A stretch of DNA of 64,000 nucleotides from Caldisericota bacterium (GCA_024655865.1 JANLFM010000006.1:17639-81638), one strand, 5' to 3'; positions 1 to 36,495 are shown, counted from the first letter of the stretch. Notes: generated from the letters alone by a model not told the origin. Translations and numbers: made by a program.

Positions 1-448
1 TTTTCCCAATTAACTCCAGATCCAGGTTTACAACGCCCATGCGGTAAAGGAGAGAGCGCAGTTCGTCAGGGGAAAACTCCGTCTTGGCCATAGTAATGGG
101 CAAAAGGAGCTCATCCTTCCTGGGCATAATCACGATCGTTTCCACCGGTTCCGCGGACCATGGGACCACCGACTTCTCGACTGCCACGACCTCGCCCCAT
201 ACCGGAGAAAAGAGCGGAAGCGATTCCTTCTCAGAGGGTGCGGCCACTTGCTGCCCCCTTTTTACGGAACTCCCGGGGCGAACCAGGGGCTTCAGAGGAA
301 TGGTATTTGCCCTTTCTTGCAGGGGCAGACAGACCTTTTGAGGAAGGGCTGAGGGGCGAATCAGTTTGTCAATAGTGGCATCCTGGCGTAAGGGGATCCA
401 TACGCCCTGAGGGAAAAATCTGGATTCTGACCTTCCTCTTTTCAGCAA
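1..448 (-). CDS. RnfC-like electron transport subunit, N-terminal part (runs off left edge)
   Basis: Reading the minus strand from about 448 gives one open frame to the edge of the window. It has the N-terminal features of RnfC: FPQGVW near the start, a PLQERANTIPLKPLV stretch, then a barrel-sandwich segment (VKRGQQVA, SPVWGEVVAVE) and a segment matching the region just before the GLGGAGFP motif of RnfC, which lies outside the window. RnfC is the peripheral NADH/flavin subunit of the Rnf ferredoxin:NAD+ ion pump. The likely start is a TTG at 448 overlapping the hypE stop, but its ribosome site is poor, so the start is uncertain. It follows hypE directly and is probably co-transcribed. A stand-alone RnfC-like protein without the other rnf genes remains possible. 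Confidence 0.68.
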   Translation of the reverse strand, partial: MLKRGRSESRFFPQGVWIPLRQDATIDKLIRPSALPQKVCLPLQERANTIPLKPLVRPGSSVKRGQQVAAPSEKESLPLFSPVWGEVVAVEKSVVPWSAEPVETIVIMPRKDELLLPITMAKTEFSPDELRSLLYRMGVVNLDLELIGK

Positions 449-1449
449 ATCCTCGGTAGTTGCTCCCCTGAGAGAGGGGCAAGCACCCTTCGTCCTCCAA
501 TCCGAGTGGAGAGCAGTGCCACTCCTTCAGGTTTTTCCAAGCATTCACCGATGAGCGTTGCCTGGGTACCCAGGGGGTGTCCTTTTAGTACGGTGAGCGC
601 CTTCTCCGCATTCTTTTTCGGAAGTATAATTACCATTCGGCCCTCACAGGCTAAATAAAGGGGATCAAGACCGAGCATGTCACAGGCAGCGCGAACGGTT
701 TCCCCTATGGGAATTTTATCCTCTTCCGCCTGAAGGCACAATCCCGATTCCCGGGCCAGCTCAGCAAGGGTTGTTGCCAGACCACCCCTTGTAGGATCCC
801 TCATAGCGTTTATTTTTAACCCCGCTTTAACCAAGGAATCAATCAAAGGCCAGACCGGAGCGCAGTCGCTTTGAAGCTCTAAGTTGCGAAAGAAGCTTTC
901 TCTGGCCTGGAGTACAGCCATTCCGTGTTCTCCAATTGGCCCGGTCACTAAAATGGCATCTCCAGGCGAGATCAGTGCCGGTTGGGGATCAGGAATTTGC
1001 CTCCTTACGCCTATGGCGCTTGTGGAGATATAAAGTTTGTCCCCTGCCCCCTTTTCCACGACCTTTGTATCCCCGGTTACTAAAGCCACTCCCGCTTCCT
1101 TGCAGGTTCTGCTCATCGATTCCAATACCCTATCCAGCTCCTCCACCTCAAGCCCTTCTTCCAAAATCAGCGAGGCGGAAAGGAAAAGCGGCTCAGCGGC
1201 CACGGCTGCCAGATCGTTGATTGAGCCGGAAACAGCCAATTTCCCGATATCTCCTCCAGGAAAGAAAATGGGGTGTACAACGAAAGCGTCTGTCGTAAAG
1301 GCGAGTCTACCTGAGCACTCTAAAAGAGCGCTGTCTAAGAGTTGCTTCAAGGGAGCGGAATCAAATCTGGGCAGGATGTGGCGTTCGATCAAATCCTGAG
1401 TTGGCCTTCCTCCGCTTCCGTGCGCCAGCGTGATAATTTCCTTTTTCAT
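442..1449 (-). CDS. hypE: [NiFe]-hydrogenase maturation protein HypE
   Basis: HypE dehydrates the thiocarboxamide on its own C-terminal cysteine to thiocyanate, supplying the CN ligands of the [NiFe] site. The protein has the AIR-synthase-like ATP-binding fold (LAHGSGGRPTQDLI near the start, VTGDTKVVEKG in the middle, DPTRGGLAT later) and ends in the diagnostic PRIC tail whose terminal Cys is modified. The start chosen is the ATG at 1449 (MKKEIITLAHGSGG), in a 4-base ATGA overlap with hypD. A longer frame to 1554 would add 34 residues found in no HypE. It acts downstream of HypF and before HypC/HypD. Confidence 0.96.
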   Translation of the reverse strand: MKKEIITLAHGSGGRPTQDLIERHILPRFDSAPLKQLLDSALLECSGRLAFTTDAFVVHPIFFPGGDIGKLAVSGSINDLAAVAAEPLFLSASLILEEGLEVEELDRVLESMSRTCKEAGVALVTGDTKVVEKGAGDKLYISTSAIGVRRQIPDPQPALISPGDAILVTGPIGEHGMAVLQARESFFRNLELQSDCAPVWPLIDSLVKAGLKINAMRDPTRGGLATTLAELARESGLCLQAEEDKIPIGETVRAACDMLGLDPLYLACEGRMVIILPKKNAEKALTVLKGHPLGTQATLIGECLEKPEGVALLSTRIGGRRVLAPLSGEQLPRIC

Positions 1450-2510
1450 GGGTGCTCCTCGTAATGATAGGCTGCCGCGCAGGAACCCTCGGAAGAAACC
1501 ATGCACGGTCCTACCGGAGAATCTGGAGTGCAGACCCTGCCAAAAAGAGGGCACTCCTGAGGGCTAATTACCCCTCTTAAGACCTCCCCGCAGCCGCACG
1601 CCGGGTATTCTCTGGAGCCCATGATCTTCAGGGGGAACCTGCGCCTGGCGTCAAAATCCCAATAGGGATGACGAAGTGCCAGACCGCTTTCCGGGATAAT
1701 CCCGAGCCCTCTCCAATTGGCCTCCTGGGGCTCAAAAACCTCTTCCATCACCTTCAGGGCCTGGGGATTTCCCTCAGGCCTCACCGCTCTTCGATACTGA
1801 ATTTCAATATCCGCCCTATCCTCCTTTTTTTGCTTTACAAGCATGAAAAGGGCAAGGAGGATATCGTCTGGTTCAAAACCAGTAATTACACCGGGCAAAT
1901 GGAATTCCTCCTTTAAGAAGAGGAAAGGTTTAGAACCGAGAATGGCACAGACGTGTCCAGGAAGGATAAAACCGTCGAGTTGAATCTCCTTCAAGGCTAA
2001 AAGCGCGCGCATTGCCGGGGGAATAAGCTTATGAAGGACAAGAAAGGAGAGGTTGGGTATATTTTCCGCCTTTGCTGTCTGTACTGTGCGCGCTATTAAA
2101 GGGGCGGTGGTCTCAAAGCCCACGGCCAGAAAGACCACCTCTTCTTTTGGGTGAGCGCGGGCCAGGTTCAGGGAATCCATTGGAGAATAGACTACCTCCA
2201 CCTTTCCCCCAGAGGCTCGCGCTTCTAAGAGGCTTGTTTCGGTTCCCGGAACCCTGACCATGTCACCGAAGGTAGCAACGATTACCCCTGGTTGATGGGC
2301 GAGAGCTATGGCGTAATCGATATCCACTTGGGCGGTGACGCATACGGGACATCCCGGTCCGGAAATAAGCTTCACGGAATCAGGAAGAAGCTTCTTTAAT
2401 CCGGAGCGAGCGATGCTCACAGTGTGAGTACCGCAAACCTCCATGAAACTGGCGCTCACACCCATTTTTGAAATTTTGCTCAAAACCTCTCTTGGTTCAA
2501 GGGATAACAT
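1446..2510 (-). CDS. hypD: [NiFe]-hydrogenase maturation protein HypD
   Basis: HypD is the Fe-S scaffold that, with HypC, assembles Fe(CN)2CO before its transfer to the hydrogenase large subunit. At 354 residues it is of normal family length. The conserved cysteine motifs are all visible: CGTHT near residue 26, GPGCPVC near 51-57, and the C-terminal Cys-rich segment (ACGCGEVL, CPLFGRVC, GPCMVSSEGSC) that holds the [4Fe-4S] cluster. It overlaps hypC by 14 bases and hypE by 4, so translation is probably coupled. Confidence 0.97.
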   Translation of the reverse strand: MLSLEPREVLSKISKMGVSASFMEVCGTHTVSIARSGLKKLLPDSVKLISGPGCPVCVTAQVDIDYAIALAHQPGVIVATFGDMVRVPGTETSLLEARASGGKVEVVYSPMDSLNLARAHPKEEVVFLAVGFETTAPLIARTVQTAKAENIPNLSFLVLHKLIPPAMRALLALKEIQLDGFILPGHVCAILGSKPFLFLKEEFHLPGVITGFEPDDILLALFMLVKQKKEDRADIEIQYRRAVRPEGNPQALKVMEEVFEPQEANWRGLGIIPESGLALRHPYWDFDARRRFPLKIMGSREYPACGCGEVLRGVISPQECPLFGRVCTPDSPVGPCMVSSEGSCAAAYHYEEHP

Positions 2511-2715
2511 CCGCGTCCTTTAAAAGCTCAAGGGTTTCCCGAGCCTCTTCTTCCTCAAGCACGGAGATGGCAAAACCCGCGTGCACGATTACGTAATCGC
2601 CTACTTGAGCCTCAGGAACGAAATCCGTGCGAATTGTCTGCTTCAAACCCCCGACCTCTACCAGGGCCTCCTGGTCTTTAATTTCCACAATCTTTACTGG
2701 TATTCCTAAGCACAT
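2497..2715 (-). CDS. hypC: Hydrogenase maturation chaperone HypC/HupF family
   Basis: This 72-residue protein starts MCLGIPVKI. Cys2 is the invariant residue that binds the Fe(CN)2CO moiety and the hydrogenase precursor. HypC works with HypD and the large-subunit precursor. Only one copy is present in the window although two different [NiFe] large subunits are encoded, so it may serve both, or a second copy may lie elsewhere. It overlaps hypF by 10 bases and hypD by 14. Confidence 0.96.
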   Translation of the reverse strand: MCLGIPVKIVEIKDQEALVEVGGLKQTIRTDFVPEAQVGDYVIVHAGFAISVLEEEEARETLELLKDADVIP

Positions 2716-4970
2716 TTTTCCTCCAATTTAGCACATGCAATTGCCCCCTGCCCTACGGAAATTGCTCCATCGTTTACGGGCAAGTTCCGAGGCAGCAGGA
2801 CTTTAAAGCCTTCTTGCTCAAGCATCTCTAAAAGACGGGCAAGAAGCAAGAGATTCTGAAAGACTCCTCCCGAAAGGACGACCTGGGAAATGGCGTATCT
2901 TTCCCTTCCCCATTTACACCCCTCCAGTATTCCTCGGGCAAACGCCTCGTGAAATGAGAGGGCTAAATCCCGAGGGTTTTCCCCTCTCAGCTTGCGATAA
3001 GCGAGCTCCCTAACCATGGGGGCGGGATCGAGCAGAAAACGGTCTTCCTCCTTGTTGGGAAAATTCAGGGGAATAACGCTCCTTCCTTTTTCCGCTTCTC
3101 GCTCCAAAATAATGGCCGCCTGTCCCTCATAGGAGATCTCCCTGGAGAACCCCAAGATTGCGGAGATGGTGTCGAAGAGGCGACCAGCTGAGGAGGTCTG
3201 TGGGGAACCAAATCCCTTTCTCCACTGGGCCTCCAGAACTTTCATTCTCTCTTCTCCAATTTCCGGGAAAATTTTTAAAGAAAGCACTGGAGAGCCTCCC
3301 TCGGCGTTCAAAAGGTGGCTCACAGCCATCCTCCATGGTTGCCTGATGGCTTCCTCTCCTCCCAGAAGAGGGAGATAATCAAGGTGACCGAACCTCTTGT
3401 AGGACCAGAGGTCGGCGATAAGAAACTCCATTCCCCAGATCGCTCCGTCATCCCCATATCCTGTCCCATCGCAGGAAACTCCGATCACGGGATGAAAAAT
3501 GCGGTGCTCGAAGAGCACGGAGGCGATGTGCGCGTGGTGATGTTGCACGGGAATCTTCATCCCTACATTAAGGGAGAGGGCATACTGGGTCACGATGTAC
3601 TGAGGATGCAAATCGTAAGCTACAACTTCTGGTTCTATCTGATAGAGCGCCTTTAAATGCTCAAGCGACGAAAGGAAGTGCTCGTAGCTTTCCCAGTTCT
3701 CCAGATCGCCTATGTGGTGGGAGAGAAAAAGGTAGTTTCTTTTGGTCAACGAGAAGGTGTTCTTCATCTCGGCCCCGGTGGCCAGAATGGAAGGGAAATT
3801 TCCCCAAAGCTTAAAGGGGAAGGGCGCGTACCCTCTGGCCCTTCTTACCATCTGAATTCCCCTGGAGTATGAGCCTAAAACGGAGTCGTCGAGTTTCTGA
3901 ACGATTTCCCGGTCGTGCCACAGGAAAGCATCCGCAACCGCAGAAAGTTTACTCAATGCCTCCTCATTTGAAGCTACCAGGGGTTCGCCGCTCTCGTTGG
4001 CTGAGGTCATTACCAGGGCCTGAAACTCCTCCAAAAGCAGGTGATGCAGCGGAGTGTAAGGGAGCATAATCCCGATTCGGTTATTGTCCGCGGAAAGGGA
4101 GGGTGCCAGGGGGGTACCCTCTCTCTTCGGAAGGATCACGATTGGCCTCCTCCAGCCAGTTAGCTCCCTTTGCGCTTCCTCAGAAACCCAGGCCAGGCTT
4201 TGAGCTACTTCCAGCGAGGGAACCATTATGGCCAATGCTTTGCTGGGCCTACCCTTTCTTTCCCTTAACCTGATCACGGCTTCCTCGTTTGTGGCATCGC
4301 AGGCTAAATGAAAACCGCCGAGCCCTTTGATCGCCAGTGTTTTTCCCTCCCTGAGCAATACTTTGGCGCGCTTTAGGGCTTCTTCCTCGAAAAGAACGCG
4401 CTCTCCTTCCTTCAAAGAGAGCTTTGGCCCGCACTTCGGGCAGGCCACGGGCTGAGCGTGATAGCGGCGATCCCTGATATCGTGATATTCCCGCTCACAG
4501 TCCGGGCACATAGGGAACTTCTTCATGGAGGTCCGGGCCCGATCGTAAGGCAAGGATTCGATAATCGTGAAGCGGGGACCGCAATTTGTACAGTTCAAAA
4601 AGGGGTAACGGTATCTCCGATCCGAGGGATCGCGCATTTCCCGCAAACAGTCCTCGCATGTAGCTACATCAGGGGGTATTAAGGTGATAGGCTCTTCCTC
4701 TGTCCGGGAGGAGCGAATTTGAAATTCCGCATAGCCCACGGGCTCCAGCTCCTCCACCTCCAGAGTCTCAAGGACAGCGAGCGGAGGGGGGTTATCTCTA
4801 AGTTCTCTGAGAAAAAATGGGGCCTTCTCCCCTTCCACTTCTATCAAGACGCCTGAGGGTGAGTTCAACACCCACCCTTTAAGATTATATTTCAGAGCCA
4901 GGTTATGGACATAAGGTCGAAAGCCGACTCCCTGGACCACTCCCTCGGCCCTGATACGCAGTCTGACCAT
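2706..4970 (-). CDS. hypF: Carbamoyltransferase HypF
   Basis: HypF makes the carbamoyl-adenylate from carbamoyl phosphate and transfers it to the C-terminal Cys of HypE. The 754 residues carry the standard domain order: an acylphosphatase-like domain (residues 1-90, VQGVGFRPYV), two zinc-finger motifs of CxxC-x18-CxxC type (about 105-185), a YrdC/Sua5-like domain (about 200-380) and a Kae1-like carbamoyltransferase domain with the VQHHHAH metal site near residue 475. It is the first gene of hypFCDE. A TGA-TATAAT extended -10 ends 7 bases before the ATG, so the message may be nearly leaderless. Confidence 0.97.
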   Translation of the reverse strand: MVRLRIRAEGVVQGVGFRPYVHNLALKYNLKGWVLNSPSGVLIEVEGEKAPFFLRELRDNPPPLAVLETLEVEELEPVGYAEFQIRSSRTEEEPITLIPPDVATCEDCLREMRDPSDRRYRYPFLNCTNCGPRFTIIESLPYDRARTSMKKFPMCPDCEREYHDIRDRRYHAQPVACPKCGPKLSLKEGERVLFEEEALKRAKVLLREGKTLAIKGLGGFHLACDATNEEAVIRLRERKGRPSKALAIMVPSLEVAQSLAWVSEEAQRELTGWRRPIVILPKREGTPLAPSLSADNNRIGIMLPYTPLHHLLLEEFQALVMTSANESGEPLVASNEEALSKLSAVADAFLWHDREIVQKLDDSVLGSYSRGIQMVRRARGYAPFPFKLWGNFPSILATGAEMKNTFSLTKRNYLFLSHHIGDLENWESYEHFLSSLEHLKALYQIEPEVVAYDLHPQYIVTQYALSLNVGMKIPVQHHHAHIASVLFEHRIFHPVIGVSCDGTGYGDDGAIWGMEFLIADLWSYKRFGHLDYLPLLGGEEAIRQPWRMAVSHLLNAEGGSPVLSLKIFPEIGEERMKVLEAQWRKGFGSPQTSSAGRLFDTISAILGFSREISYEGQAAIILEREAEKGRSVIPLNFPNKEEDRFLLDPAPMVRELAYRKLRGENPRDLALSFHEAFARGILEGCKWGRERYAISQVVLSGGVFQNLLLLARLLEMLEQEGFKVLLPRNLPVNDGAISVGQGAIACAKLEEKCA

Positions 4971-16865: not shown

Positions 16866-17387
16866 TTATTTTTGAAGGAGAATTTCTCTTAAGAAGGAGA
16901 CTATTTTGGGGATAGCTCTTCTTACCTGGGGCGAGAGCTCCAGGGAAAACTCGATGCCTGCAGGCTTTAAGAGCAAGAATTTCACTTGAGCAGAGGAGCC
17001 CTTTTTGACCTCCTCCGCAAGTAACTTCAGGGGGAACCGGTGCGAAAAAAGGGGTTCATCCGGAAGTTCCTCCGGGTCAAAAAATTCCCAATTTCCGGAG
17101 GAACCAGGGATATCCCCCGCATCGCAGATGAGCACTGCTTCGGGATTCAAGCGCAGAATCGGGGAAAGGAAGCTTTCTGGGGCGCTTTCTCCCCAAAATA
17201 GGTGGACGCCCTCGGGAATTGATTTCTTGAGCGCAGAAAGCAAATAGAAAGCCCAGCCATCGTCCCCGCGCAGAGTTGAACCAGCCCCTAAGATCACCAG
17301 GGGGCGCTTTTTGAAGAAATCCTCAATACTGGAAGGCGAAAACTTACTCTTTTTGATTTTCCTTTCCGGTTTCTTCTGAAGAGGCAT
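16866..17387 (-). CDS. Hydrogenase maturation endopeptidase, HycI/HybD family
   Basis: These nickel-dependent proteases remove the C-terminal extension of the [NiFe] large subunit once nickel is inserted. The motif ILGAGSTLRGDDGWAF (about residues 31-46) is the family signature, with the metal-ligand Asp. At 173 residues it has a roughly 30-residue basic N-terminal addition compared with usual members. It overlaps the ferredoxin-like gene by 44 bases, and no shorter ATG/GTG/TTG start exists before the motif. It is the last hydrogenase gene of the group 4 operon, and the nearby large subunit has a 30-residue tail after DPCLSCTDR, its probable substrate. Confidence 0.9.
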   Translation of the reverse strand: MPLQKKPERKIKKSKFSPSSIEDFFKKRPLVILGAGSTLRGDDGWAFYLLSALKKSIPEGVHLFWGESAPESFLSPILRLNPEAVLICDAGDIPGSSGNWEFFDPEELPDEPLFSHRFPLKLLAEEVKKGSSAQVKFLLLKPAGIEFSLELSPQVRRAIPKIVSFLREILLQK

Positions 17388-17760
17388 CCTCCTTGGGTTT
17401 CGGAGGTACTCCCTCTTTGCGGTCGATAAGTTGTGCTCTCTGGAAGGTGGCTAATTCAAAGATCTGACTCATGGTGATCGCCTTCCGGGGACAACTGTCC
17501 GCACACTGACCGCAATAAATGCACCGGTCCAGGGAGAAGGTGCAGGCGAAGGTCTTTTCCGCAATCTTTTCAATGGTAATTACTCCAGAGGGACAATCCC
17601 TCTCGCAGATCTTGCAGCCTACACACTTTTCCGGATCAAACACCGGACGACCACGGAAGTTTGGGGGGACAGGAAGGCGCTCTTTAGGATAGAGAACGGT
17701 AGCTGGTTTGCGGCCTAAATTTTTTGTGATTTCACGCCAGATAGCACCGGGACGAGTCAC
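17344..17760 (-). CDS. 2x[4Fe-4S] ferredoxin-like subunit of group 4 hydrogenase (NuoI/HycF/EchF type)
   Basis: Two CxxCxxCxxxCP motifs (CVGCKICERDCP and CIYCGQCADSCP) make this the subunit that passes electrons from ferredoxin towards the [NiFe] module. At 138 residues it is of NuoI/MbhN size, with a charged Lys/Glu-rich C-terminal tail. It overlaps the membrane-subunit gene by 4 bases and the protease gene by 44. In complex I the equivalent subunit receives electrons from NuoG, but no NuoEFG genes lie in this operon, so soluble ferredoxin is the likely donor. Confidence 0.92.
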   Translation of the reverse strand: MTRPGAIWREITKNLGRKPATVLYPKERLPVPPNFRGRPVFDPEKCVGCKICERDCPSGVITIEKIAEKTFACTFSLDRCIYCGQCADSCPRKAITMSQIFELATFQRAQLIDRKEGVPPKPKEDASSEETGKENQKE

Positions 17761-18716
17761 AGGATACCTCCTTTCTGGAAGAGAACCACAAGCAACATCC
17801 CCAGGAGGCTCAAAGGCGCCAGGATCTTCCAGCCAAAACTGATCATCTGGTCAATGCGGATTCTGGCCACTGCAGCTTTGATGTAGGCCAAAATAAAGAT
17901 CACGATTAAGGTCTTGATCAGGTAAGCGATAAAACCAGGGATTCCTAAAAATGACTGCGCACCGCCCAGGAAAACGGCGGAAAGCAGGGAAGCACCCACA
18001 ACCATTTCCATGTCCAAAGAGAGCCTGAAGATAGCCAGGAGTCTTCCGGAATATTCCGTGAATGGCCCGGCGACCAGCTCAGTTTCCGCATCAGGGATAT
18101 CGAACGGCTTGCGCTCCAATTTCCCCTGGAGGGCTATGATTCCCACGATGAAAGCTAAAATTACCGGAATGAAGTAGAAGGGGTGAGCGAACAAAAAGGA
18201 TGGCAGGTTCTGGGAGATCTCCGAGATGTTCCAGGTTCCCAAAAGCAAAGCAGGGGTGAGGAGAGCCAGGAAAAAAGGAACCTCATAAGCGAATAGCTGA
18301 GTGAGGCACCTGATTCCCCCCAGGATACTGTAGGCCGTCGCAGAATTCCATCCTGAAAGGGAAAGCACCAAGGTGGGGATAGTCAAAAGGTAAGCCACGA
18401 TTACCAAGTCCCCCTGATAAGAGTATAGGGCCTGGGGAGACCAGACCGGAATAAAGAAAAAGGCCGTCACCACGCTGGCGAAGGCGAAATAGGGAAGGAG
18501 GGTGTAGAGGTAGTACCCAGCGGAACGGGGAACGATCACCTCCTTGGAAAAGAGCTTGATCAAGTCGGCCAGGGGTTGCCAGTAAGGAGGCCCCACTCTG
18601 TTCTGCATACGGGCATATAATTTGCGATCCAGCCATTCCGCGAAAATGGCATAAATTACCAGGAACAGGAACCCCGGAAATATTAAAAGTTGAAGGACAA
18701 AAAGCAGTTCGTTCAT
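17757..18716 (-). CDS. Membrane subunit NuoH/HycD/EchB type
   Basis: This 319-residue hydrophobic protein has about eight membrane helices and the first-loop signature EWLDRKLYARMQNRVGPPYW, characteristic of NuoH/HycD/EchB/MbhM. It anchors the hydrophilic [NiFe] module to the membrane and forms the first part of the ion path. It overlaps its neighbours by 4 bases on each side. Confidence 0.95.
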   Translation of the reverse strand: MNELLFVLQLLIFPGFLFLVIYAIFAEWLDRKLYARMQNRVGPPYWQPLADLIKLFSKEVIVPRSAGYYLYTLLPYFAFASVVTAFFFIPVWSPQALYSYQGDLVIVAYLLTIPTLVLSLSGWNSATAYSILGGIRCLTQLFAYEVPFFLALLTPALLLGTWNISEISQNLPSFLFAHPFYFIPVILAFIVGIIALQGKLERKPFDIPDAETELVAGPFTEYSGRLLAIFRLSLDMEMVVGASLLSAVFLGGAQSFLGIPGFIAYLIKTLIVIFILAYIKAAVARIRIDQMISFGWKILAPLSLLGMLLVVLFQKGGIL

Positions 18717-19888
18717 AGCGGTTTCTTTGCGATACTCCTCCTTCTCAGTTCTTCCCAGGTGAGAATCTCTCCCTCTTTTTCCCCCGCCTGTTTCAAAAGA
18801 ATCAGGCGATCAGTGCAGGAAAGGCAGGGGTCGATTGCCGCAATAATGATGGGGATGTCAGCTACTTGCTGATTCAAAAGGCAGTGCCTGATGGACATTA
18901 AATTTGCCATTGTAGGAGCGCGCACTTTCACCCTGTCCGGCTTCTCGCTTCCGTTCGCCCGCACGTAGTGGATGCATTCCCCGCGAGGGGCTTCGTAGCG
19001 AGATGTGGCTTCTCCTTGAGGAACCTTTCTGGGAACACGCGCGGTGATGGGACCTTCCGGGAGATTTTTCAGAGCGTATTTAATGATTTTCACGGATTCA
19101 AAAATCTCCCCCACCCTGACCAGTGTTCGACCCAGGACGTCACCTCTCTCAGAAGTAATTACCTGGAAGGGAATCTGGTCATAGGCGGCGTAGGGAAAAT
19201 CTCTCCTGACATCGTAGTTCACGCCTGAACCTCTGGCAGTGGGACCCACGGCGCAATAAGCAATGGCAATGTCCTTAGGGAGATACCCCACTCCGGAGAC
19301 CCGGGCGATGAACGTGCTTTCCTCCCTGGCCACCTTCTCATAATACAGGGTGCGCTCCTCCAGAATCTTTATTCCCTTGAGGGTCTCGTCGATTTCCTCC
19401 TGATTCATATCCTTGCGCACACCGCCGAAGGTGTTCATGCCGTAGTTGACTCTATTCCCGGTGATGATCTCCAAAAGGTCCATGACGATTTCCCGATCCC
19501 TCCAGGAGACCATAAAGAGAGTATCAAATCCAATTTCGTGGCCAGCGACACCCAGCCAGAGGAGGTGACTGTGGATTCTCTCCAGCTCTCCCACTACGGT
19601 GCGCAAAAATTTTGCCCGGGGTGGGACTTCCACGTTCAGGATTTTTTCCACGGCCTGCACGAAATTAGTGGCATGTGTGTGGGAGCAAATGCCACAAATT
19701 CTCTCTATCATGTATAGATCCTGGATGTAGGTTCTTTCCTCAGCAGCTTTTTCAATTCCCCGGTGGTTATAGCCCATCCGGATGTCGGCGTCCACAATTG
19801 TTTCTCCATCCAGGGTAAAGCGGAAATGAATGGGCTCTTTTAAAAGCGGGTGCTGTGGTCCAATCGGTAAAGTCAATCTTTCACTCAT
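18713..19888 (-). CDS. Group 4 [NiFe]-hydrogenase large subunit (NuoD/HycE/EchE type)
   Basis: The 391-residue protein keeps all four nickel-iron ligands: ERICGIC (Cys65 and Cys68) and DPCLSC (Cys355 and Cys358). It is therefore a true hydrogenase and not a complex I NuoD, which lacks them. Thirty residues follow the SCTDR motif, with a segment WEELRRRSIAKKPL like the cleaved tail of E. coli HycE, which points to processing by the protease at 16866. The fold is NuoD-like (MGYNHRGIEKAAEERTY). It should reduce protons with ferredoxin electrons, or oxidise H2, coupled to ion movement. Confidence 0.95.
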   Translation of the reverse strand: MSERLTLPIGPQHPLLKEPIHFRFTLDGETIVDADIRMGYNHRGIEKAAEERTYIQDLYMIERICGICSHTHATNFVQAVEKILNVEVPPRAKFLRTVVGELERIHSHLLWLGVAGHEIGFDTLFMVSWRDREIVMDLLEIITGNRVNYGMNTFGGVRKDMNQEEIDETLKGIKILEERTLYYEKVAREESTFIARVSGVGYLPKDIAIAYCAVGPTARGSGVNYDVRRDFPYAAYDQIPFQVITSERGDVLGRTLVRVGEIFESVKIIKYALKNLPEGPITARVPRKVPQGEATSRYEAPRGECIHYVRANGSEKPDRVKVRAPTMANLMSIRHCLLNQQVADIPIIIAAIDPCLSCTDRLILLKQAGEKEGEILTWEELRRRSIAKKPL

Positions 19889-20261
19889 TGCTTTTCACCT
19901 CCCCTGGTTTGAAATCCTTGCGCAAAGGGTAAACGCCTTCCGGCCAATGCTCTGGCAAGATCAATCTCCGGCCGTCGATTATGCCCTCGAATTTCACCCC
20001 CAAAAGATCCTGGATCTCCCTTTCGTAAAGGATTCCCCCAGGTAAAACAGGGGTTATAGAGGGGAGAACGGGGTTTTCTTTAGGAACTGAAGTGCGCACG
20101 TTCAAATCGCCCTCACTGCCCACAAAGTGGTAGAGGATGTAGTAATTATCGCCCTCTTCGTATCCGGAAATCGTGGAAAGAAGACGAAATGCTCCGCTCT
20201 TTAAAAACTCCTCCACCCAGTTTCGGATTTCGGAGGAATTGACATCAACCCACATGCCCAC
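19881..20261 (-). CDS. NuoC/EchD/HycE-N type subunit
   Basis: This 126-residue protein has the NuoC (30-kDa subunit) signature: EREIQDLLGVKFEGI followed by LPEHWPEGVYPLRKDF. It binds the large subunit and is fused to it in E. coli HycE, but here it is separate. It overlaps the large-subunit gene by 8 bases. Confidence 0.92.
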   Translation of the reverse strand: MGMWVDVNSSEIRNWVEEFLKSGAFRLLSTISGYEEGDNYYILYHFVGSEGDLNVRTSVPKENPVLPSITPVLPGGILYEREIQDLLGVKFEGIIDGRRLILPEHWPEGVYPLRKDFKPGEVKSNE

Positions 20262-20264
20262 TCG

Positions 20265-20693
20265 CTATCCTCCTTTCTTTAGCTTCTCCAATAGCGCGTA
20301 AACTCCCTGGATAATGGCATCGGGGCGGGGAGGGCAACCGGGGACATAGGCAGTCACGGGAATAACGTCGTCCATCCCTCCCAGGGTGTTGTAACAGCCG
20401 CGGAAAACTCCACCCGAGATTGCGCAGGCCCCTACGGCCACAACGAATTTAGGATGAGGTATCTGATCGTAAATGCGTTTCAGCCTGCTCTTGATCTGCT
20501 CATTTACGGGACCAGTGCAGACAAGGATATCTGCGTGTCTGGGAGTTCCCTTGAGGAGGATACCGAAGCGCTCTACATCGAAGCGCGGGGTAAGTGCTGC
20601 CAGAACCTCTATGTCGCACCCGTTGCACCCACCAGCATTGAAGTGGATGATCCACGGGGATGCTCTTCTTGACCATTCTACAATCTTGGACAT
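20265..20693 (-). CDS. Group 4 [NiFe]-hydrogenase small subunit (NuoB/EchC/HycG type)
   Basis: The 142 residues carry the proximal [4Fe-4S] ligands: GGCNGCD (Cys23, Cys26), VGACAISGG and VPGCPPRPD. The CxxC spacing is that of hydrogenases; complex I NuoB has two adjacent Cys for cluster N2. With the large subunit it forms the catalytic module. The gene lies 3 bases upstream of nuoC and follows the NuoA-like gene. Confidence 0.95.
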   Translation of the reverse strand: MSKIVEWSRRASPWIIHFNAGGCNGCDIEVLAALTPRFDVERFGILLKGTPRHADILVCTGPVNEQIKSRLKRIYDQIPHPKFVVAVGACAISGGVFRGCYNTLGGMDDVIPVTAYVPGCPPRPDAIIQGVYALLEKLKKGG

Positions 20694-20697
20694 TTCT

Positions 20698-21009
20698 TCA
20701 CCTCAATATTAGAGACAGAAGGGCCAGGACAATTATTCCTGCGTAAACGAGCCCCACCCAGGCCAGACCGTAGGGGAGAAGCCCCAAAAGTAAAGCCAGG
20801 ACGTGAAGCACGGTGAAAAAAAGAGCAATGGGAAAGAATACCCGGTACCCGATGAATTTTTTTTCGCCAGGTATGTCCTCGCCTCCGGCATAGGAAGTAG
20901 TAGCTTCCTCGTCGGGAGGAGCCTGGGGGGATATCCTCTTTCCTCCAAACCCCAAAAGGAGCGCCACGAGGAGGAAGAAAACAAAAGCTAAGGGAGGAAC
21001 GAAGCTCAT
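20698..21009 (-). CDS. NuoA-like small membrane subunit
   Basis: This 103-residue protein has three membrane helices and, between the first and second, a loop (YAGGEDIPGEKKFIGYRVFFP) with the layout of NuoA/NdhC. Its place immediately before the NuoB gene is also that of nuoA in complex I operons. NuoA-like subunits are not expected in the smaller Ech or Hyc complexes, so this is notable. It could be a divergent small subunit unrelated in detail to NuoA. Confidence 0.75.
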   Translation of the reverse strand: MSFVPPLAFVFFLLVALLLGFGGKRISPQAPPDEEATTSYAGGEDIPGEKKFIGYRVFFPIALFFTVLHVLALLLGLLPYGLAWVGLVYAGIIVLALLSLILR

Positions 21010-22467
21010 CTAAAACCCTCCTTTAAGCAAGGAGAAAGCCTGAGCAACCCAGCTTCTTACGGGATCAGGCTGAACTCCAAGATAGATTGTTAGAAGGCAA
21101 AGGATAACCAGAGCGACAGTCATGGCCCAGGGGACTTCCTTTATTGCGGGGACCTTTTCCGCCTTTTCCTTGCTGTATAAAACGCCGATTGCCGGGAGAT
21201 AGTAGCCCAGGGAAAGGACAGAGTTGAAAATAGCCACGAGCGACCCAGCCCAGCCCAAAGCGGTGCCGCTCTGAATACCGCTCTGATAGATCAAAAGTTT
21301 GCTCATGAATCCCGAGAAGGGGGGCACTCCAGCCAGAGAGAGAGCGGCGACCGAGAAAGTCAAAGCAGTGACGGGCATTCTCCATCCTGCACCCCTCATA
21401 TCCTCTAAATAGCCGGAGCTTAGCCGGAAAATCAGGGCTCCGGCGCAGAGGAAGGCCAGCCCTTTCATGAAGGCGTGAGTGATGATGTGAAACACGCCTC
21501 CGGTAAACCCGCTGGCTACGCCGTAGGTGGCTCCCATCCCAATTCCTAAAAGGATGTAGCCCATCTGCGCGATGGAGGAGTAAGCGAGCATCCGTTTGAG
21601 CTGCTTCTGGGTCAGGGCCATGATATTTCCCGCGGTCATTGTCAGGAGGGCAAACCAGATCAGAATTTCTCCCCAGGGGAGGCTGGCGCCCAGGGAGAGC
21701 ATTATCCTGAGCATGGTAAAAAGCCCGGTCTGAATAATGATTCCCGAAAGCATGGCAGAAATTCCCGAGGGAGCTTCAGGGTGAGCGTCGGGAAGCCAGG
21801 TATGCAGAGGGAACATAGCCGCTTTGATTCCGAAGCCAATGAGGAACAGGGTTATGGGCAACCAGATTGAGGCACCGCCAGAAGCGGTGAAGAGATAATT
21901 CAGGTCTAAATTGCCGAATTGGGCATAAACCAGGGAGATACCTAAGAGGATAAAGGCTGATCCGGTAACGGACATAACCATGAACTTGATGCCCGCCTCC
22001 ACCGGTTCCCATTTGTCCTTACGAAAAGCCACCAGGGCAAAGGAAGTAATTGAGAGAAGCTCAAAGAACAGGTAAAGGTTGAAGAGGTCATAGGCAAAGG
22101 CCAGTCCGATCACCGAAAGGACCATGAGGAGCAAAAGCGGGAAGAATTTGCTCGTTCCGGTATCCTCCTCCATGTAAACGATGGAGTAAAGGGCCACGAC
22201 GGTACCCAGGACAAGGCTGACTTCGGCCACAATCCACCCCAGGAGGTCGATCTGCCAAGAAAGGACGCCAAAAAGTAAAACCTTTTCGCTCGCTCCTGTC
22301 ATGCGGAAAAGAAGGGAGAAACTAATCAGGCTCCCCAGAAGAGCAAGAAAAGCGATTACGCCTGAGATCAGCCTCTCCCTGTGACGGAAGAGAACCCCTC
22401 CTAAATAGCTGGCGACAGCTCCCAGGACAAGCAAAGAAATTGTGGTTTCCAGGAAGGATGCACTCAC
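21010..22467 (-). CDS. Antiporter-like subunit, NuoN/MrpD type
   Basis: This 485-residue protein has about 14 membrane helices of the proton-conducting Nuo L/M/N and MrpA/D family. It shows the helix with the conserved charged site IKAAMFPLHTWLPDAHPEAPS and the earlier Glu in LFFELLSI. It is the third antiporter-like gene in series and is called N-like from its size and position after the NuoM-like gene. Confidence 0.9.
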   Translation of the reverse strand: MSASFLETTISLLVLGAVASYLGGVLFRHRERLISGVIAFLALLGSLISFSLLFRMTGASEKVLLFGVLSWQIDLLGWIVAEVSLVLGTVVALYSIVYMEEDTGTSKFFPLLLLMVLSVIGLAFAYDLFNLYLFFELLSITSFALVAFRKDKWEPVEAGIKFMVMSVTGSAFILLGISLVYAQFGNLDLNYLFTASGGASIWLPITLFLIGFGIKAAMFPLHTWLPDAHPEAPSGISAMLSGIIIQTGLFTMLRIMLSLGASLPWGEILIWFALLTMTAGNIMALTQKQLKRMLAYSSIAQMGYILLGIGMGATYGVASGFTGGVFHIITHAFMKGLAFLCAGALIFRLSSGYLEDMRGAGWRMPVTALTFSVAALSLAGVPPFSGFMSKLLIYQSGIQSGTALGWAGSLVAIFNSVLSLGYYLPAIGVLYSKEKAEKVPAIKEVPWAMTVALVILCLLTIYLGVQPDPVRSWVAQAFSLLKGGF

Positions 22468-22469
22468 CT

Positions 22470-23918
22470 TTAGCCTCCTACTTGAATGCCCAGAAGATTA
22501 AGAGCGCCCCTCACCAGTTGAAACGCTGGACCGGGGTATATTCCAAAGATGATCATAATTAAGAGACCGGCTGCCAGGGCCAAAGAGGTATTCCAGGGAG
22601 GCCTGATCACCGATCCCTCGTGCTCCTTTTGAAGTGGTCCGAAGAAGACGAACCTCACCAGGCGCAAGCCGTAAGCTGCCGTGAGCACGGAAGCCACTAA
22701 TGCCAGGGAGGCGACCAGGTAATTTGATGAAGCAAATCCTCCCGAGAATGTGAGAAACTCGGGCCAGAATCCCAGAACTGGCGGCGCTCCAAGAAGAGAA
22801 AGCATGGCCGCTGAGGCACAGACTGCAGCAAAGGGGTGTCTTTTGGCCCAGCCCCCCAGCTCGTCCAGGCGCCAGGTAGAGGCACTCTCAGCCACCAATG
22901 CCACGGAGGTAAAGAGCACGAGCTTGGTAACCGCCTGGTTCATGATGTTGAAAACCGAACCGGAGATTCCTAAAGGGACTAAAGTGGCGAACCCGAAAAG
23001 AACATATCCCATCTGGCTCATTGAGGAGTAAGCGATCATCCTCTTGGCGTTCTTCTCCGCAAGGGCCATCGCTCCTCCGTAGAACATATTCACCAGGCTA
23101 GCAATCAAAAAGGGAAGGGATAGTTTTAAGAGGGCTTCCCGGGGGAAGAAGGGAAGGAACCTGGCGAATCCGTAAATTCCCACCGAGGTCATCATGCCCA
23201 CGAGGACCAGGGTAACTGGCATGCTGGAAGTAGTGTAAGCATCCGGAAGCCAGGTGTGGAACGGGAAGATCGCCAGTTTCACGATAAATGCCATGAAGAA
23301 TAAAGCTGCCATCCAAACGAGGGTGGATACAGGCAACTTGGGTAGGAGATCCTGAAGCACGAACATGTTCGTAGTACCTAAAGTGGAATAAATCCAAAGA
23401 ATGGAGGCCAGAGTGAGTACGGCGCCGATATGGGTGATGATGAAGAACTTCAATCCCGTATAGCGCACCTTTTTGGGGTCCTCGTTCCAGTTTACAACGA
23501 GCGCCCAGGCCGGGATAAGCATCGCCTCCCAGAACACGTAAAACTGGATCAAATCCCGCGCTAAAGCCACACCCACCGTGCCGAAAAGGACAAGCAGGAT
23601 CAGGGAGTAGAAGGAAGGGGACCTCTCGTGTTCCAGGGGTTTTCTCAAAGAGTAGAGAAGGGAGTAAGCGCAGGCAAAAGAAAGCACGATCAGGACAATA
23701 GCAGTTAAATAGTCAAAGGAAAGCACCATGGTCACCCCCAGGCCCAACCCCAGATAAACGGTGAGTTTCTGGGGCAGGAGAAGGAACACGAACAAAAGCT
23801 CCAGGAGGGCGGTGACCAAAGCGAGAATCGCTGCAGTTTCCTTTTTATCTTTTGGGAACAAAAGGACAATCAGCGCCCCCAGAAGGGGAAGAAATTGTAA
23901 AACTAAGAGCTCTACCAT
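22470..23918 (-). CDS. Antiporter-like subunit, NuoM type
   Basis: This 482-residue membrane protein has the NuoM pattern: FWEAMLIPAWALV around the key Glu and the Lys-containing VKLAIFPFHTWLPDAY motif, about 14 helices. Start and stop are 2 bases from one neighbour and overlap the other by 7. It should be one of the ion-translocating channels of the complex. Confidence 0.93.
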   Translation of the reverse strand: MVELLVLQFLPLLGALIVLLFPKDKKETAAILALVTALLELLFVFLLLPQKLTVYLGLGLGVTMVLSFDYLTAIVLIVLSFACAYSLLYSLRKPLEHERSPSFYSLILLVLFGTVGVALARDLIQFYVFWEAMLIPAWALVVNWNEDPKKVRYTGLKFFIITHIGAVLTLASILWIYSTLGTTNMFVLQDLLPKLPVSTLVWMAALFFMAFIVKLAIFPFHTWLPDAYTTSSMPVTLVLVGMMTSVGIYGFARFLPFFPREALLKLSLPFLIASLVNMFYGGAMALAEKNAKRMIAYSSMSQMGYVLFGFATLVPLGISGSVFNIMNQAVTKLVLFTSVALVAESASTWRLDELGGWAKRHPFAAVCASAAMLSLLGAPPVLGFWPEFLTFSGGFASSNYLVASLALVASVLTAAYGLRLVRFVFFGPLQKEHEGSVIRPPWNTSLALAAGLLIMIIFGIYPGPAFQLVRGALNLLGIQVGG

Positions 23919-25732
23919 AGGATCAACCCCAGAATGATTAGTAAGGCAACTACAATGTAGAGCAGGTTCCAGTGCAGATCACCGGTTTGCATTTTCCTGC
24001 TTGAGATACTCAAGGCCACGCTGCCTTCTCCTGTGGCCCGGTTTATCCCCTCCATCACCTTTTCCTCAAAGAAAGTGGAAAGGAGGTTGGAGGTAGCATA
24101 AATCTGCTGAGAGAGCCAGCCGTATAAAATATCAAATCCTAAACCTACGGAAACTGCTTTGAAGAAGGCGGGAATTTTACCCTTCAGCCAGCCCAGGTTC
24201 CTGCGATAGTAAAAGATCAAAAAGCCCAATACGATTACACAGACCGTGATCAGGAAAGCTGTGGAGGAAAAGGTCTCCCTCAAAAGCTCCAGCCAGTCAA
24301 TGTGCGGAGCTTCCAGGCCTGTCCTTATCCAGGAAGTGGTCAAGGGCCCTACAAGCACCCATGAGACCAGGGAGCCCAGAGCGAGAAGCGTGAGCGGGCC
24401 GGTCATCACGACAGGCGCTTCCTTGACGTGAGCGCTGGTTCTTCTCTTTCCCCAGAACACAACGGCCGTGGTGCGCAGGGAGTAATAAGCAGTAAGGAGA
24501 GCGGCCAGCGCAGCGACGATCAAAGGCCCCCAGGAACCAGCGATCAGGCCTTCCTCTAAAATCATGTCCTTGGAAAAGAAACCGTTGAGCACGGGGAGCC
24601 CCATCAATGCCAGGGCTCCGATCAAGAAGGTGGTTCCGGTTACGGGCATGAACTTCTGGAGTCCGCCCATCTCCCTGATGTCCCTCGTTTTAAGCTCATG
24701 GATCACGGCCCCCGCACAGAGGAAAAGCAGGGCTTTGAAGATAGCGTGGGAGAAAAGGTGGAACTGGGAGGCGAAAACTCCTCCTACCCCCACAGCGAAA
24801 ACCATGTAGCCTAATTGGGAGATGGTGGAATAGGCCAGAATGCGCTTCAGGTCATTATGGAAAGCAGCCAGCAGGGAACCTAAAAGCGCGGTCAGAGCGC
24901 CAATCCACTGGATGACTACAAGCCAGGATGGAACGAGGGAAAGAAGCGGATAAACGCGAGCTAAAAGGTAGACGCCGGCGTTCACCATAGTGGCGGCGTG
25001 AATCAAAGCGGAGATCGTGGTGGGAGCTTCCATGGCGTCCGGCAGCCAGACGTGTAGCGGAAGTTGAGCCGACTTTCCCACTGCTCCCAGGATGAAGCCA
25101 AAAGCGATGAAGTTCAGGAGGGGAAGAGCGATCTTGCTGCCTTCGGCCAGTCCCTGGCTGATGGAGAAAGTCCCTGTGAAGGCATAAATTGTAAGGATGG
25201 CAGCTAAAAGCCCGATATCTCCGATCCTGGTCGTGAGGAAAGCTTTCACTCCTGCTGAGGCTGCTTTGGGATCCTTGTAGAAAAAGCCAATCAGGGCATA
25301 GGAGCACACTCCCATTACTTCCCAGAAGAAAAAGAGCGACAGAAAATTATCGGCCAGGGACATCCCGATCATAGAGGCGATGAAGAGCAAGGTGAGGGAG
25401 TAATACCGGGAGAGGTTCTCCTCGTGTTTCATGTAACCCAAGGAATAGATCAGAACCAGGAACCCGATCCAGGTGGCGATCAATGCGGGAACAACGGAGA
25501 GAGTGTCTAACTGAAATCCAGTCTTTAACACTCCGGGTAGCCATTCAAAGGATGCCGCCTGAGCACCGATCTGCCCCAGAAGGAAGAACCCGATCACCGC
25601 TGTCACGAGACCCACAAAAACGGAAAATAAAGGCACCGCCCTGGAAGCGAAGAAGTTAAGCAAAGGAACAAGGGCAGCTCCCGCAAGCGGCACGATCAAA
25701 AGCAGGAGGGGGATCATCTCTTTATTCATCAC
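23912..25732 (-). CDS. Antiporter-like subunit, NuoL type with lateral helix
   Basis: At 606 residues it matches full-length NuoL. It has the channel motifs FFFWEVMGVCSYALI and VGKSAQLPLHVWLPDAMEAPTTISA. The C-terminal third (about residues 510-606) continues with a membrane helix, a long amphipathic stretch (GFDILYGWLSQQIYATS and on) and a final helix after SSRKMQTGDLHWNLL, the layout of the lateral helix HL that spans the membrane arm in complex I. Simple Ech and Hyc enzymes have fewer antiporter subunits. Confidence 0.94.
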   Translation of the reverse strand: MMNKEMIPLLLLIVPLAGAALVPLLNFFASRAVPLFSVFVGLVTAVIGFFLLGQIGAQAASFEWLPGVLKTGFQLDTLSVVPALIATWIGFLVLIYSLGYMKHEENLSRYYSLTLLFIASMIGMSLADNFLSLFFFWEVMGVCSYALIGFFYKDPKAASAGVKAFLTTRIGDIGLLAAILTIYAFTGTFSISQGLAEGSKIALPLLNFIAFGFILGAVGKSAQLPLHVWLPDAMEAPTTISALIHAATMVNAGVYLLARVYPLLSLVPSWLVVIQWIGALTALLGSLLAAFHNDLKRILAYSTISQLGYMVFAVGVGGVFASQFHLFSHAIFKALLFLCAGAVIHELKTRDIREMGGLQKFMPVTGTTFLIGALALMGLPVLNGFFSKDMILEEGLIAGSWGPLIVAALAALLTAYYSLRTTAVVFWGKRRTSAHVKEAPVVMTGPLTLLALGSLVSWVLVGPLTTSWIRTGLEAPHIDWLELLRETFSSTAFLITVCVIVLGFLIFYYRRNLGWLKGKIPAFFKAVSVGLGFDILYGWLSQQIYATSNLLSTFFEEKVMEGINRATGEGSVALSISSRKMQTGDLHWNLLYIVVALLIILGLILW

Positions 25733-26022
25733 CCTTTCAACCTTCTCATATCGTCAGTATCAAGCGAGCTCGATTTCTCGTGGAAAGCGTAAACCAGGGC
25801 CAGAAATACTGCTACCACCATAACTTCGATAGCAATGGCAATTACTGCCAGACTCTGGGTGTAAGATAAGGAGTTGCGCAGGATGCCACTCCAGATCAAG
25901 GCAAGCGTAGCGCCTTTGCTCAGGAGTTCCAAACCAATCAGAATCTTGATCAGATTGCGCCTGGTAAGCAGGCAGAAGATGCCCAAAGCAAAAAGGGCGA
26001 AAACAAAGGGCCAGAGGTTCAT
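25729..26022 (-). CDS. NuoK/MrpC-type small membrane subunit
   Basis: This 97-residue protein has three membrane helices with the two intramembrane glutamates of NuoK/MrpC (GLELLSKGA and AIAIEVMVVA), part of the ion path between the NuoH-like and antiporter subunits. It overlaps its neighbours by 4 bases on each side. Confidence 0.93.
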   Translation of the reverse strand: MNLWPFVFALFALGIFCLLTRRNLIKILIGLELLSKGATLALIWSGILRNSLSYTQSLAVIAIAIEVMVVAVFLALVYAFHEKSSSLDTDDMRRLKG

Positions 26023-26501
26023 CTCTCTTTACTTTCCCCCTCCTTTCTCAATAACGCCAGAATGCCTAAGACTGCTGCCAGAATTACCAGAATCTGGGGC
26101 AATAAATCAAACAGCCTTACCTTCCAAAGAATTTCGCCCACCTCTCCCCAGCTGGTTTCAGGGATGATGTCCGCCAGGACTTGAGGCCAGAGCGCCTGGA
26201 AAAGAAAAAAGACCAGCGCCGCTAAAGCCAGGGAAAGGGCAAGCCATAGGGCAGCGCCCGGTTGCTTTTTTTCCTTCCTCTTCTGGAGGAAGGAAATCGT
26301 GAGCACCGCGAGCACGGTAATCAATCCTGCACCCACTGAGAGTTCAAAAGCTCCCGCCACCGGGGAATTAAGCTGGTAGAAAGCTATAGAGAGCAGGGCG
26401 GAAACCGTCGCCAGGGAGAGGACGGAAAGCAAGGTATCCCTCAAAAAGACAGCGAGAAGAGCAAAAAACAGAAGAAAACCTAAAGTGAGATAGATCATCA
26501 T
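26019..26501 (-). CDS. NuoJ/MbhD-like membrane subunit, first gene of group 4 hydrogenase operon
   Basis: This 160-residue protein has about five helices. The central motif FYQLNSPVAGAFELSVGAGLITVL resembles the third helix of NuoJ and MbhD/MrpB (DUF4040) proteins, where a pi-bulge helix gates the ion path. It is the first gene after the strong promoter at 26597-26624, with AGAGG before two adjacent ATG codons (26501 and 26498). Whether it is closer to NuoJ or to MbhD cannot be decided by eye. Confidence 0.82.
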   Translation of the reverse strand: MMIYLTLGFLLFFALLAVFLRDTLLSVLSLATVSALLSIAFYQLNSPVAGAFELSVGAGLITVLAVLTISFLQKRKEKKQPGAALWLALSLALAALVFFLFQALWPQVLADIIPETSWGEVGEILWKVRLFDLLPQILVILAAVLGILALLRKEGESKER

Positions 26502-32401: not shown

Positions 32402-32837
32402 TCTCTTCCTCTCTTTCTTGCACTTCTTTTATCAGGTTTTCCAGTATTTTAATTCCCTTTTCGGCAGAAGCCAGGGCTTCGGGTGAGAGACCCTCGCCAA
32501 AATCAAAATTGTACCCTCTTAGAGAAAGAAGAAAGGCTCGAGGTCGGCGATGATAGAGTTCCTCGAGCCAGAACAGGAATTGCTCCGGAAGGAGGTGGTG
32601 GGAAAGGAAGGAGGGCTTATTTTCCGGGAAAATTTCCCTCACCCGCACTTCCTCCCCTTCCAAAGCCGCATCTACGAATACGGCATAATCACAAAGCGCC
32701 AATTCCTCAAGGAGGTCTAAAGAAAGCTCCTGGAGGAACAACTTCTGGGCGGAAATTTCCGCTTTCTGGACGACATAATGGCCGATCCCGTCGTCCTGGC
32801 GATAAGGATTGCCGTAGGCGATTAAAAGGAGCCTAAT
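32382..32837 (-). CDS. Hydrogenase maturation protease, HoxW type (non-standard start codon)
   Basis: The frame reads IRLLLIAYGNPYRQDDGIG, the GxGNxxRxDDGxG signature of the nickel-dependent protease, followed by a VFVDAALEGEEV segment with the second metal-site Asp. The first ATG/GTG/TTG after an upstream stop lies past the motif, at a Met near 32741, so use of it would delete the active site. The signature therefore needs a rarer codon: ATT at 32837, overlapping the hoxH stop, is the best candidate, with AAAAGG about 10 bases upstream. This gives 151 residues, normal for the family. It should process HoxH after DPCLSCSTH. Confidence 0.8.
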   Translation of the reverse strand: MRLLLIAYGNPYRQDDGIGHYVVQKAEISAQKLFLQELSLDLLEELALCDYAVFVDAALEGEEVRVREIFPENKPSFLSHHLLPEQFLFWLEELYHRRPRAFLLSLRGYNFDFGEGLSPEALASAEKGIKILENLIKEVQEREEENERPQN

Positions 32838-34257: not shown

Positions 34258-34265
34258 AGTTCCTC

Positions 34266-34808
34266 CTAATCGTACTTCAGAAGCTCTTCTTTGAGCTCTG
34301 GGGTTTTCCCCTCCAGGATATCCTTGAGCACTTTATAGATAGCGTCCGCCGAGGGAGGGCAACCGGGAATGTAGAAGTCCACCTTTACCACTTCGTTCAG
34401 GGCCATGCACTTCTTGAGGTGTTTGCCAATTCCCGGACCCTGGGGGATCTTTCCCTCCACCGTGCTCTCAGTGTTTACATATCCTCTTTTTAAAAGCTCC
34501 TCGATGGGAATGTAGTTTCTCATGGTGTTGATCCCGCCGAAGACCGCACAGTCCCCTAAAGCAACCAGGATCTTGCAGCGCTCGCGGAAGAGTTTCGCTA
34601 CCTCCTCGTGGTGGTCGGTGGCCACTGCTCCCTCGAGCACCCCGATATCCGTTCCGAAAGCGGGGACCTTAAGGTCGGTTATAGGTGTGGCGGTGATCAC
34701 CAACCCCTCATTGATCAGCTCCACTAATCGCTCATCCATATCTAAGAGGGACATGTGGCAACCCGCACACCCCTCTAACCAGTCGCTCGCTAAGGTTATC
34801 TTCTTCAT
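34266..34808 (-). CDS. hoxY: Group 3 [NiFe]-hydrogenase small subunit (HoxY type)
   Basis: At 180 residues it has ligands for one proximal [4Fe-4S] cluster only: GCAGCH (Cys14, Cys17), GDCAVFGG and IPGCPPS. There is no signal peptide or extra cluster domain, as in HoxY and MvhG. It pairs with the large subunit 8 bases downstream. AGGAGG precedes the ATG. Confidence 0.94.
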   Translation of the reverse strand: MKKITLASDWLEGCAGCHMSLLDMDERLVELINEGLVITATPITDLKVPAFGTDIGVLEGAVATDHHEEVAKLFRERCKILVALGDCAVFGGINTMRNYIPIEELLKRGYVNTESTVEGKIPQGPGIGKHLKKCMALNEVVKVDFYIPGCPPSADAIYKVLKDILEGKTPELKEELLKYD

Positions 34809-34830
34809 GGCGTTCCTCCTGACCTTTGCC

Positions 34831-36483: not shown

Positions 36484-36495
36484 TTACCTCCTGAA

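Follow-up and report, generated by a model that had tools for sequence, protein, structure and literature searches.

An operon of about 9.6 kb from a Caldisericota bacterium most likely encodes an energy-converting [NiFe] hydrogenase of group 4 that evolves H2, has a complete membrane arm of the complex-I type and belongs, as a bacterial member, to the clade of complex-I-like hydrogenases (a probability of roughly 80%). The operon lies in a stretch of 64,000 nucleotides (hereafter the window), where twelve packed ORFs on the minus strand run from 26501 to 16866, each where the initial annotation had placed it. Read from the 5' end, they encode J, K, L, M, N, A, B, C, D, H and I and then a HycI-type protease (Table 1), with neighboring genes either overlapping by 4-44 nt or separated by gaps of 0-4 nt, and all subunits are contained in this single unit. 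These ORFs bear out the order that had been claimed, J-K-L-M-N followed by A-B-C-D-H-I. No NuoE, NuoF, NuoG or other electron-input module was found between 16866 and 26501, so the earlier statement that E, F and G are missing from the operon also holds. Similar genes occur at 34831-41657, where they adjoin another hydrogenase.

Table 1. Genes of the hydrogenase operon and neighboring features, with window coordinates
Feature	Coordinates	Strand	Basis or remark
J, NuoJ-like, 160 aa	26019..26501	-	PF00499, profile-profile
K, NuoK, 97 aa	25729..26022	-	PF00420
L, NuoL orthologue, 606 aa	23912..25732	-	TIGR01974, tree, predicted fold
M, NuoM orthologue, 482 aa	22470..23918	-	TIGR01972, trees, residues
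N, NuoN-clade antiporter-like subunit, 485 aa	21010..22467	-	PDB, tree, residues
A, distant NuoA/ND3 homologue, 103 aa	20698..21009	-	PF00507 weak, profile-profile
B, hydrogenase small subunit, CxxC type	20265..20693	-	PDB match MbhJ, CNGC
C, NuoC/30-kDa-like	19881..20261	-	PF00329 E=2e-24
D, [NiFe]-hydrogenase large subunit	18713..19888	-	Cys65/68/355/358, PDB match MbhL, 4g clade
H, NuoH-like membrane anchor	17757..18716	-	PF00146 E=1.5e-79, residues, tree
I, 2x[4Fe-4S] electron-entry subunit	17344..17760	-	PF00037, NuoI/HycF-type NCBIfam
HycI-type hydrogenase maturation protease	16866..17387	-	PF01750, TIGR00072
HypE-like (AIRS domains), HypD and HypF maturation genes	442..4970	-	~12 kb from the operon
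CHASE4 histidine kinase gene	26775-28880		upstream of the operon, opposite transcription

The catalytic subunits are those of a hydrogenase. D has all four cysteine ligands of the NiFe site that had been noted (Cys65, Cys68, Cys355 and Cys358), and they do not vary in an alignment with its relatives, unlike in the hydrogenase-related complex Ehr, where these ligands are lost. D also keeps a C-terminal tail past its CxxCxxR motif, of the kind normally cleaved by a HycI-type protease. The protease encoded at the end of the operon matches both PF01750 and TIGR00072 (77.4 bits against a cut-off of 47.45), and hyp genes are present in addition to the tail and this enzyme. Among solved proteins, the closest to D is MbhL of P. 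furiosus (337 bits), followed by HycE (294) and only then by complex I, and B finds its best PDB match in MbhJ (E=1.5e-50). The hydrogenase CxxC spacing claimed for the small subunit is seen in B as a CNGC motif at the position of the tandem CC of NuoB (cluster N2). Together with the ND1-like anchor and the 2x[4Fe-4S] subunit I, in which PF00037 was found in two stretches alongside matches to NuoI/HycF-type NCBIfam models, these proteins make up a group 4 [NiFe] hydrogenase set, and the group 4 identity proposed at the outset is upheld by the NiFe ligands, the type of B, and the kinship of D and B to Mbh.

In phylogenetic trees, D falls inside a clade with Omnitrophota, Bathyarchaeota, Asgard and Thermoplasmatota loci (support 95/91, or 97/91 when Mbx is omitted). 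By this kinship D would belong to the loosely defined HydDB group 4g, a placement that here means a tree clade shared with lineages whose enzymes are named 4g in the literature. Hydrogenases of this group are recorded from Omnitrophota, Endomicrobia and Bathyarchaeota (PMC5037454, PMC8542988, PMC11257099), and group 4g has been called polyphyletic (PMC11291895). In two metagenome-assembled genomes (MAGs) of the same family (G003, G004), out-of-frame deletions interrupt the large-subunit gene, each at a place of its own (L024 near 3925 and L025 near 4562). The adjoining genes look intact, and both assembly error and decay could account for the breaks.

The membrane arm differs from the usual 4g/Mrp-like one. 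L and M exceed the cut-offs of the models for NuoL (TIGR01974, 502.8 bits against 407.5) and NuoM (TIGR01972, 289.3 bits against 263.8), which creates an annotation trap in that standard models label these hydrogenase subunits as parts of NADH-quinone oxidoreductase. The best PDB match of L, over its full length, is Thermus Nqo12, and the nearest solved relative of N is MbhH. A wide, quick tree of 127 antiporter-like proteins was complemented by careful trees for each subunit, of which the one for L lacked some NuoL rows that the wider tree included. In these analyses, L clusters with NuoL and the complex-I-like hydrogenases of archaea (98/92), M likewise with NuoM and those hydrogenases (99/98), and N with NuoN and Thermoplasmatota hydrogenases (97/96). 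The Asgard loci L094/L102 fall, together with Nuo, into the clade of L and into that of M; in the tree of N, the 97/96 branch separates the Asgard set from the window's side. NuoL, NuoM and NuoN are each monophyletic, with no hydrogenase sequence inside. As judged from these trees, L, M and N are one-to-one orthologues of NuoL, NuoM and NuoN.

The key residues agree with this assignment. L has E138, K220, K296 and K388-D389; M has E131, K214 and the M-type Glu387 on helix 12, and lacks counterparts of NuoM K265 and H348; N has E136, K215 and K390. The charge on helix 12 is thus Lys, Glu and Lys in L, M and N, the same as in complex I, whereas the Omnitrophota-type 4g arm has Lys there in all three of its antiporter-like subunits. 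In E. coli formate hydrogenlyase (FHL), HycC has a Glu at this place that is otherwise conserved only in the complex I subunit ND4 (PMC9474812). The lateral helix that had been ascribed to L appears in its AlphaFold model (pLDDT 86.9) as a continuous helix of ~53 residues (530-582) ahead of the last transmembrane helix (586-605). The model superimposes on E. coli NuoL with a Z score of 50.7 and 2.4 A over 529 residues, and since the alignment given to the predictor contained NuoL sequences, it shows that L fits the NuoL fold but does not amount to finding that fold independently. The three antiporter-like subunits that were expected are therefore present as NuoL/M/N orthologues according to the trees and the Lys/Glu/Lys pattern. 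Among relatives, N of the Thermoplasmatota hydrogenases with JKLN order (L092, L095, L174, L175) has Glu instead of Lys on helix 12, like HycC, and Bathyarchaeal L subunits (L093 1194; L104 16730) sit on a very long branch and have lost the helix-12 Lys (Thr in GFWCTNW).

Among the small membrane subunits, J scores 36 bits against PF00499 (cut-off 33.2, E=6.9e-9), with an N-terminal part that is also similar to MbhD, and profile-profile comparison by hhalign matches it to NuoJ at 97.7%, so the suggestion that the 160-residue protein is NuoJ passes on both counts. K matches PF00420 (E=2.2e-19), and its E32 aligns with NuoK E36. The identification of the 103-residue protein A as NuoA fared less evenly: its match to PF00507 is under the Pfam cut-off (E=0.038) and no NCBIfam model matches, and this weak result was settled by the profile-profile comparison, in which A matches NuoA at 97.8% and swapped controls give only ~1%. 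A has three transmembrane helices (model pLDDT 82) and is conserved in an alignment of 34 proteins from 4g complexes. The protein can be described as NuoA-like, but because NuoA D79 and E81 are replaced, A is a distant ND3-type subunit. In H, the acidic residues of the E-channel are kept (E145, D206, D209, E211, E213 and E221), and in its tree H groups with NuoH within a 4g-type clade, apart from Ech, Hyf and Mbx. The complete complex-I-type membrane arm that had been envisaged (L, M, N, J, K, A and H) is therefore in place.

The initial annotation described the operon as a circular permutation of nuo. The order itself is correct, but it is better read as two swapped modules, JKLMN and ABCDHI, with the apparent break in nuo order falling at the boundary between them, and it is not diagnostic because a similar order occurs in the nuo2 locus of Sinorhizobium meliloti (L120), which runs J-K-...-M-N-A-B-C-D; gene order alone was accordingly ruled out as evidence. 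On pSymA (L120 3049-18763), the nuo2 genes are J, K, two divergent antiporter-like genes, M, N and then A-B-C-D; H and I are encoded on the opposite strand. A chimeric contig or a chance arrangement was ruled out for the window as well, given that the same order is kept in independent assemblies from two phyla. JKLMN-ABCDHI recurs in four further loci (L023, L025, L033, L173) and partially in three (L024, L219, L220). By genome, it is found in the window, G001 (the same contig as Caldisericota MAG A05DMB09, L032) and G004, and partially in G002 and G003, so that it is kept in the window's family as far as contigs reach; it was also seen in 2 of the 294 Elusimicrobiota sampled. Within the window's phylum, a NuoL-type L was detected at this match level in all five genomes of the family and in none of the 49 others. 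A two-antiporter version, JKLN-ABCDHI, is found in Thermoplasmatota and Chloroflexota, and the antiporter genes of Bathyarchaeota and Asgard loci are often divergent from the ABCDHI genes.

Several known systems share parts of this design. For Asgard archaea, a complex-I-like [NiFe] hydrogenase of group 4 has been published that has two antiporters and a full-length helix HL, together with a proposed link to complex I (PMC11291895). The Asgard enzyme resembles the present one in its NiFe large subunit near 4g, its NuoL-like subunit with HL, and its NuoK/M-like parts, but it is archaeal and has two antiporters in the modeled complex, whereas the present enzyme is bacterial and encoded in one operon with three NuoL/M/N-orthologous antiporters. 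The catalytic core is like that of P. furiosus Mbh and E. coli FHL, and N is nearest to MbhH; however, the solved structures of Mbh and FHL have one large antiporter-like subunit (MbhH, HycC), Mbh adds Mrp-type subunits, and the lateral helix of FHL is only short (PMC9474812). With respiratory complex I, the operon shares the complete set of 11 core subunits (A, B, C, D, H, I, J, K, L, M and N), the E-channel acids, the lateral helix, and orthology of L, M and N. It differs in keeping the NiFe site and a CxxC small subunit, in lacking the NADH module, in its divergent NuoA, and in its swapped modules. As to whether the same arrangement already stands as a named subtype, no description of the bacterial three-antiporter form was found in the literature searched, whose coverage of relevant papers is incomplete, whereas a two-antiporter Asgard relative and the 4g catalytic group have been described. 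The operon is a bacterial three-pump variant of published complex-I-like hydrogenases, not a separate category. As far as checked, what is new is the bacterial form, the single operon, the three antiporters orthologous one by one to NuoL/M/N, and the two-to-three-pump series.

The genomic setting offers some hints regarding function. Exactly three antiporter-like genes were found genome-wide, all in the operon, and D is the single 49-kDa gene. No second 49-kDa gene or complex I, no Rnf, and no MrpF was found in this genome, which is 96% complete, so that genes scored absent could sit in gaps; the operon itself has no MrpE/F/G-type subunits (MbhA-C). Because no other antiporter-like gene, complex I, Rnf or MrpF was found, the complex is probably the only ferredoxin-coupled ion pump of the cell. 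A second [NiFe] hydrogenase cluster at 32833-41657 encodes Vhu/Mvh-like large and small subunits along with NuoG-like, NuoF and NuoE proteins and a fusion of NuoF and GltD 1024 aa in length. This combination is unusual and possibly serves electron bifurcation.

No biochemistry on a close relative was found, and we infer the electron donor, direction, ion and stoichiometry from the genes. Reduced ferredoxin, which is proposed as the donor from subunit I only, would pass electrons to the two 4Fe-4S clusters of I, then to the proximal cluster of B and on to the NiFe site of D, where protons would be reduced to H2. Turnover would drive protons along the E-channel in H, A, J and K toward the antiporter-like subunits N, M and L, which the lateral helix of L would hold together, and the exported ion, most likely H+ because MrpF-type partners are absent, would then be used for ATP synthesis. 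Coupling may differ from that of complex I, since A lacks NuoA D79/E81 and M lacks NuoM K265/H348. Given the single 49-kDa gene, the location of all three antiporter genes here, and the lack of Rnf and MrpF, the likeliest role in the cell is to oxidize reduced ferredoxin while releasing H2 and exporting protons.

The high ion stoichiometry suggested earlier is limited by the redox span from ferredoxin to H2, which is small for three pumps. With a textbook ferredoxin potential of -500 mV, the transfer of two electrons to H+/H2 at 25 C is calculated to yield ~17 kJ/mol at 1 bar H2, 34 at 100 Pa and 45 at 1 Pa, which at a proton motive force of 150 mV (14.5 kJ per H+) could pay for ~1, 2 and 3 H+, respectively. 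Export of 4 H+ per H2 would need ~1 Pa H2 and less than ~120 mV, close to the thermodynamic limit. Either some antiporter subunits idle on a given turnover, or the enzyme operates where H2 is very low. It is also conceivable, albeit unlikely, that the complex runs in reverse, spending H2 and an ion gradient on the production of low-potential reduced ferredoxin. In principle, group 4 enzymes can work in both directions, three pumps would give a strong uphill drive, and the second [NiFe] hydrogenase in the genome could serve redox balance. However, the operon contains no biosynthetic hint, and a cell in which neither Rnf nor complex I was found needs a generator for that gradient, for which this complex is the only candidate of the superfamily that was found.

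The operon bears on the origin of the three pumps of complex I, since it gives a NiFe hydrogenase one-to-one counterparts of all three. The idea of a link between hydrogenases and complex I is reportedly older, with Marreiros et al. 2013 as an earlier source. In a tree of L, M, N, H, D and B concatenated, for which Omnitrophota-type 4g hydrogenases served as the root, complex I groups with the Bathyarchaeal/Asgard hydrogenases, and the window's group joins Thermoplasmatota outside them. Constraining the hydrogenases together without complex I was rejected (p 2e-5), also after L and M had been removed (p 1.5e-4), but N, H and B by themselves did not reject it (AU test, p 0.064), and these values concern a group that was named after seeing the trees and a concatenation in which L and M have no 4g outgroup. 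Single-gene trees differ on the sister of complex I, with NuoH joining Bathyarchaeal/Asgard H (99/99) and NuoN falling on the window's side. The tree of D was set aside as uninformative on this point: NuoD is a long branch outside 4g, and the long NuoD and Mbx, both lacking NiFe, group together. When Mbx is left out, Nuo plus 4g form one side with support of just 79/78, and the test does not reject a grouping of Nuo and the Bathyarchaeal/Asgard set (p 0.109). Overall, the trees favor an origin of complex I within or beside the clade of complex-I-like hydrogenases, with the exact sister uncertain, and the relevance to complex I origins that had been anticipated is sustained by the position of complex I inside these hydrogenases in the rooted concatenated trees.

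A further reading, which we hold tentatively and at somewhat less than even odds, is that complex I is a derived hydrogenase: the 11-subunit module with three pumps and a lateral helix would predate quinone use, and the window's lineage would be a bacterial survivor. If true, a functional NiFe site already had the NuoL/M/N pumps around it before H2 evolution gave way to quinone reduction. The conflict among single-gene trees leaves room for a different history, which we consider less likely than not, in which a 4g hydrogenase module acquired its arm by capture from an early complex I (or Fpo-like) lineage; the operon would then be uninformative on complex I origin. D and B are plainly hydrogenase/4g and yet L passes the NuoL model, and the usual 4g arm is quite different. 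The monophyly of NuoL, NuoM and NuoN argues against a recent capture, and H, which is part of the catalytic module, shares the affinity of the arm for Nuo proteins. Far less probable still is the explanation that this is just another Mrp-linked hydrogenase of group 4g, like those of Omnitrophota, whose genes have been reordered. Both kinds have D in the same clade, three antiporter-like genes, NuoA-, J- and K-like genes, and a maturation protease at the operon end, but the usual 4g order is L-L-N-J-K-A-B-C-D-H-I, its L, L and N fall elsewhere in the tree and are not orthologous to those of the window, and the Omnitrophota-type subunits lack the M-type Glu. As a complex-I-like hydrogenase, the operon offers a rare living relative with which the rise of complex I can be tested, and the two-pump JKLN-ABCDHI and three-pump JKLMN-ABCDHI forms provide a graded series for testing structure, stoichiometry and ancestry in a compact unit.

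Other group 4 loci encountered among the comparisons have features of their own. A Euryarchaeota 4g locus (L086 3876) contains a 1094-aa ORF that matches two antiporter-like subunits in tandem and is probably a fusion. On a plasmid of Azospirillum thermophilum (L121 183-9071), an aldehyde:ferredoxin oxidoreductase gene adjoins a group 4 [NiFe] hydrogenase operon, and plasmid pNP243 of Butyrivibrio fibrisolvens (L122 1457-12752) has an operon for an Ech-type hydrogenase that includes hypA, F, C, D and E.
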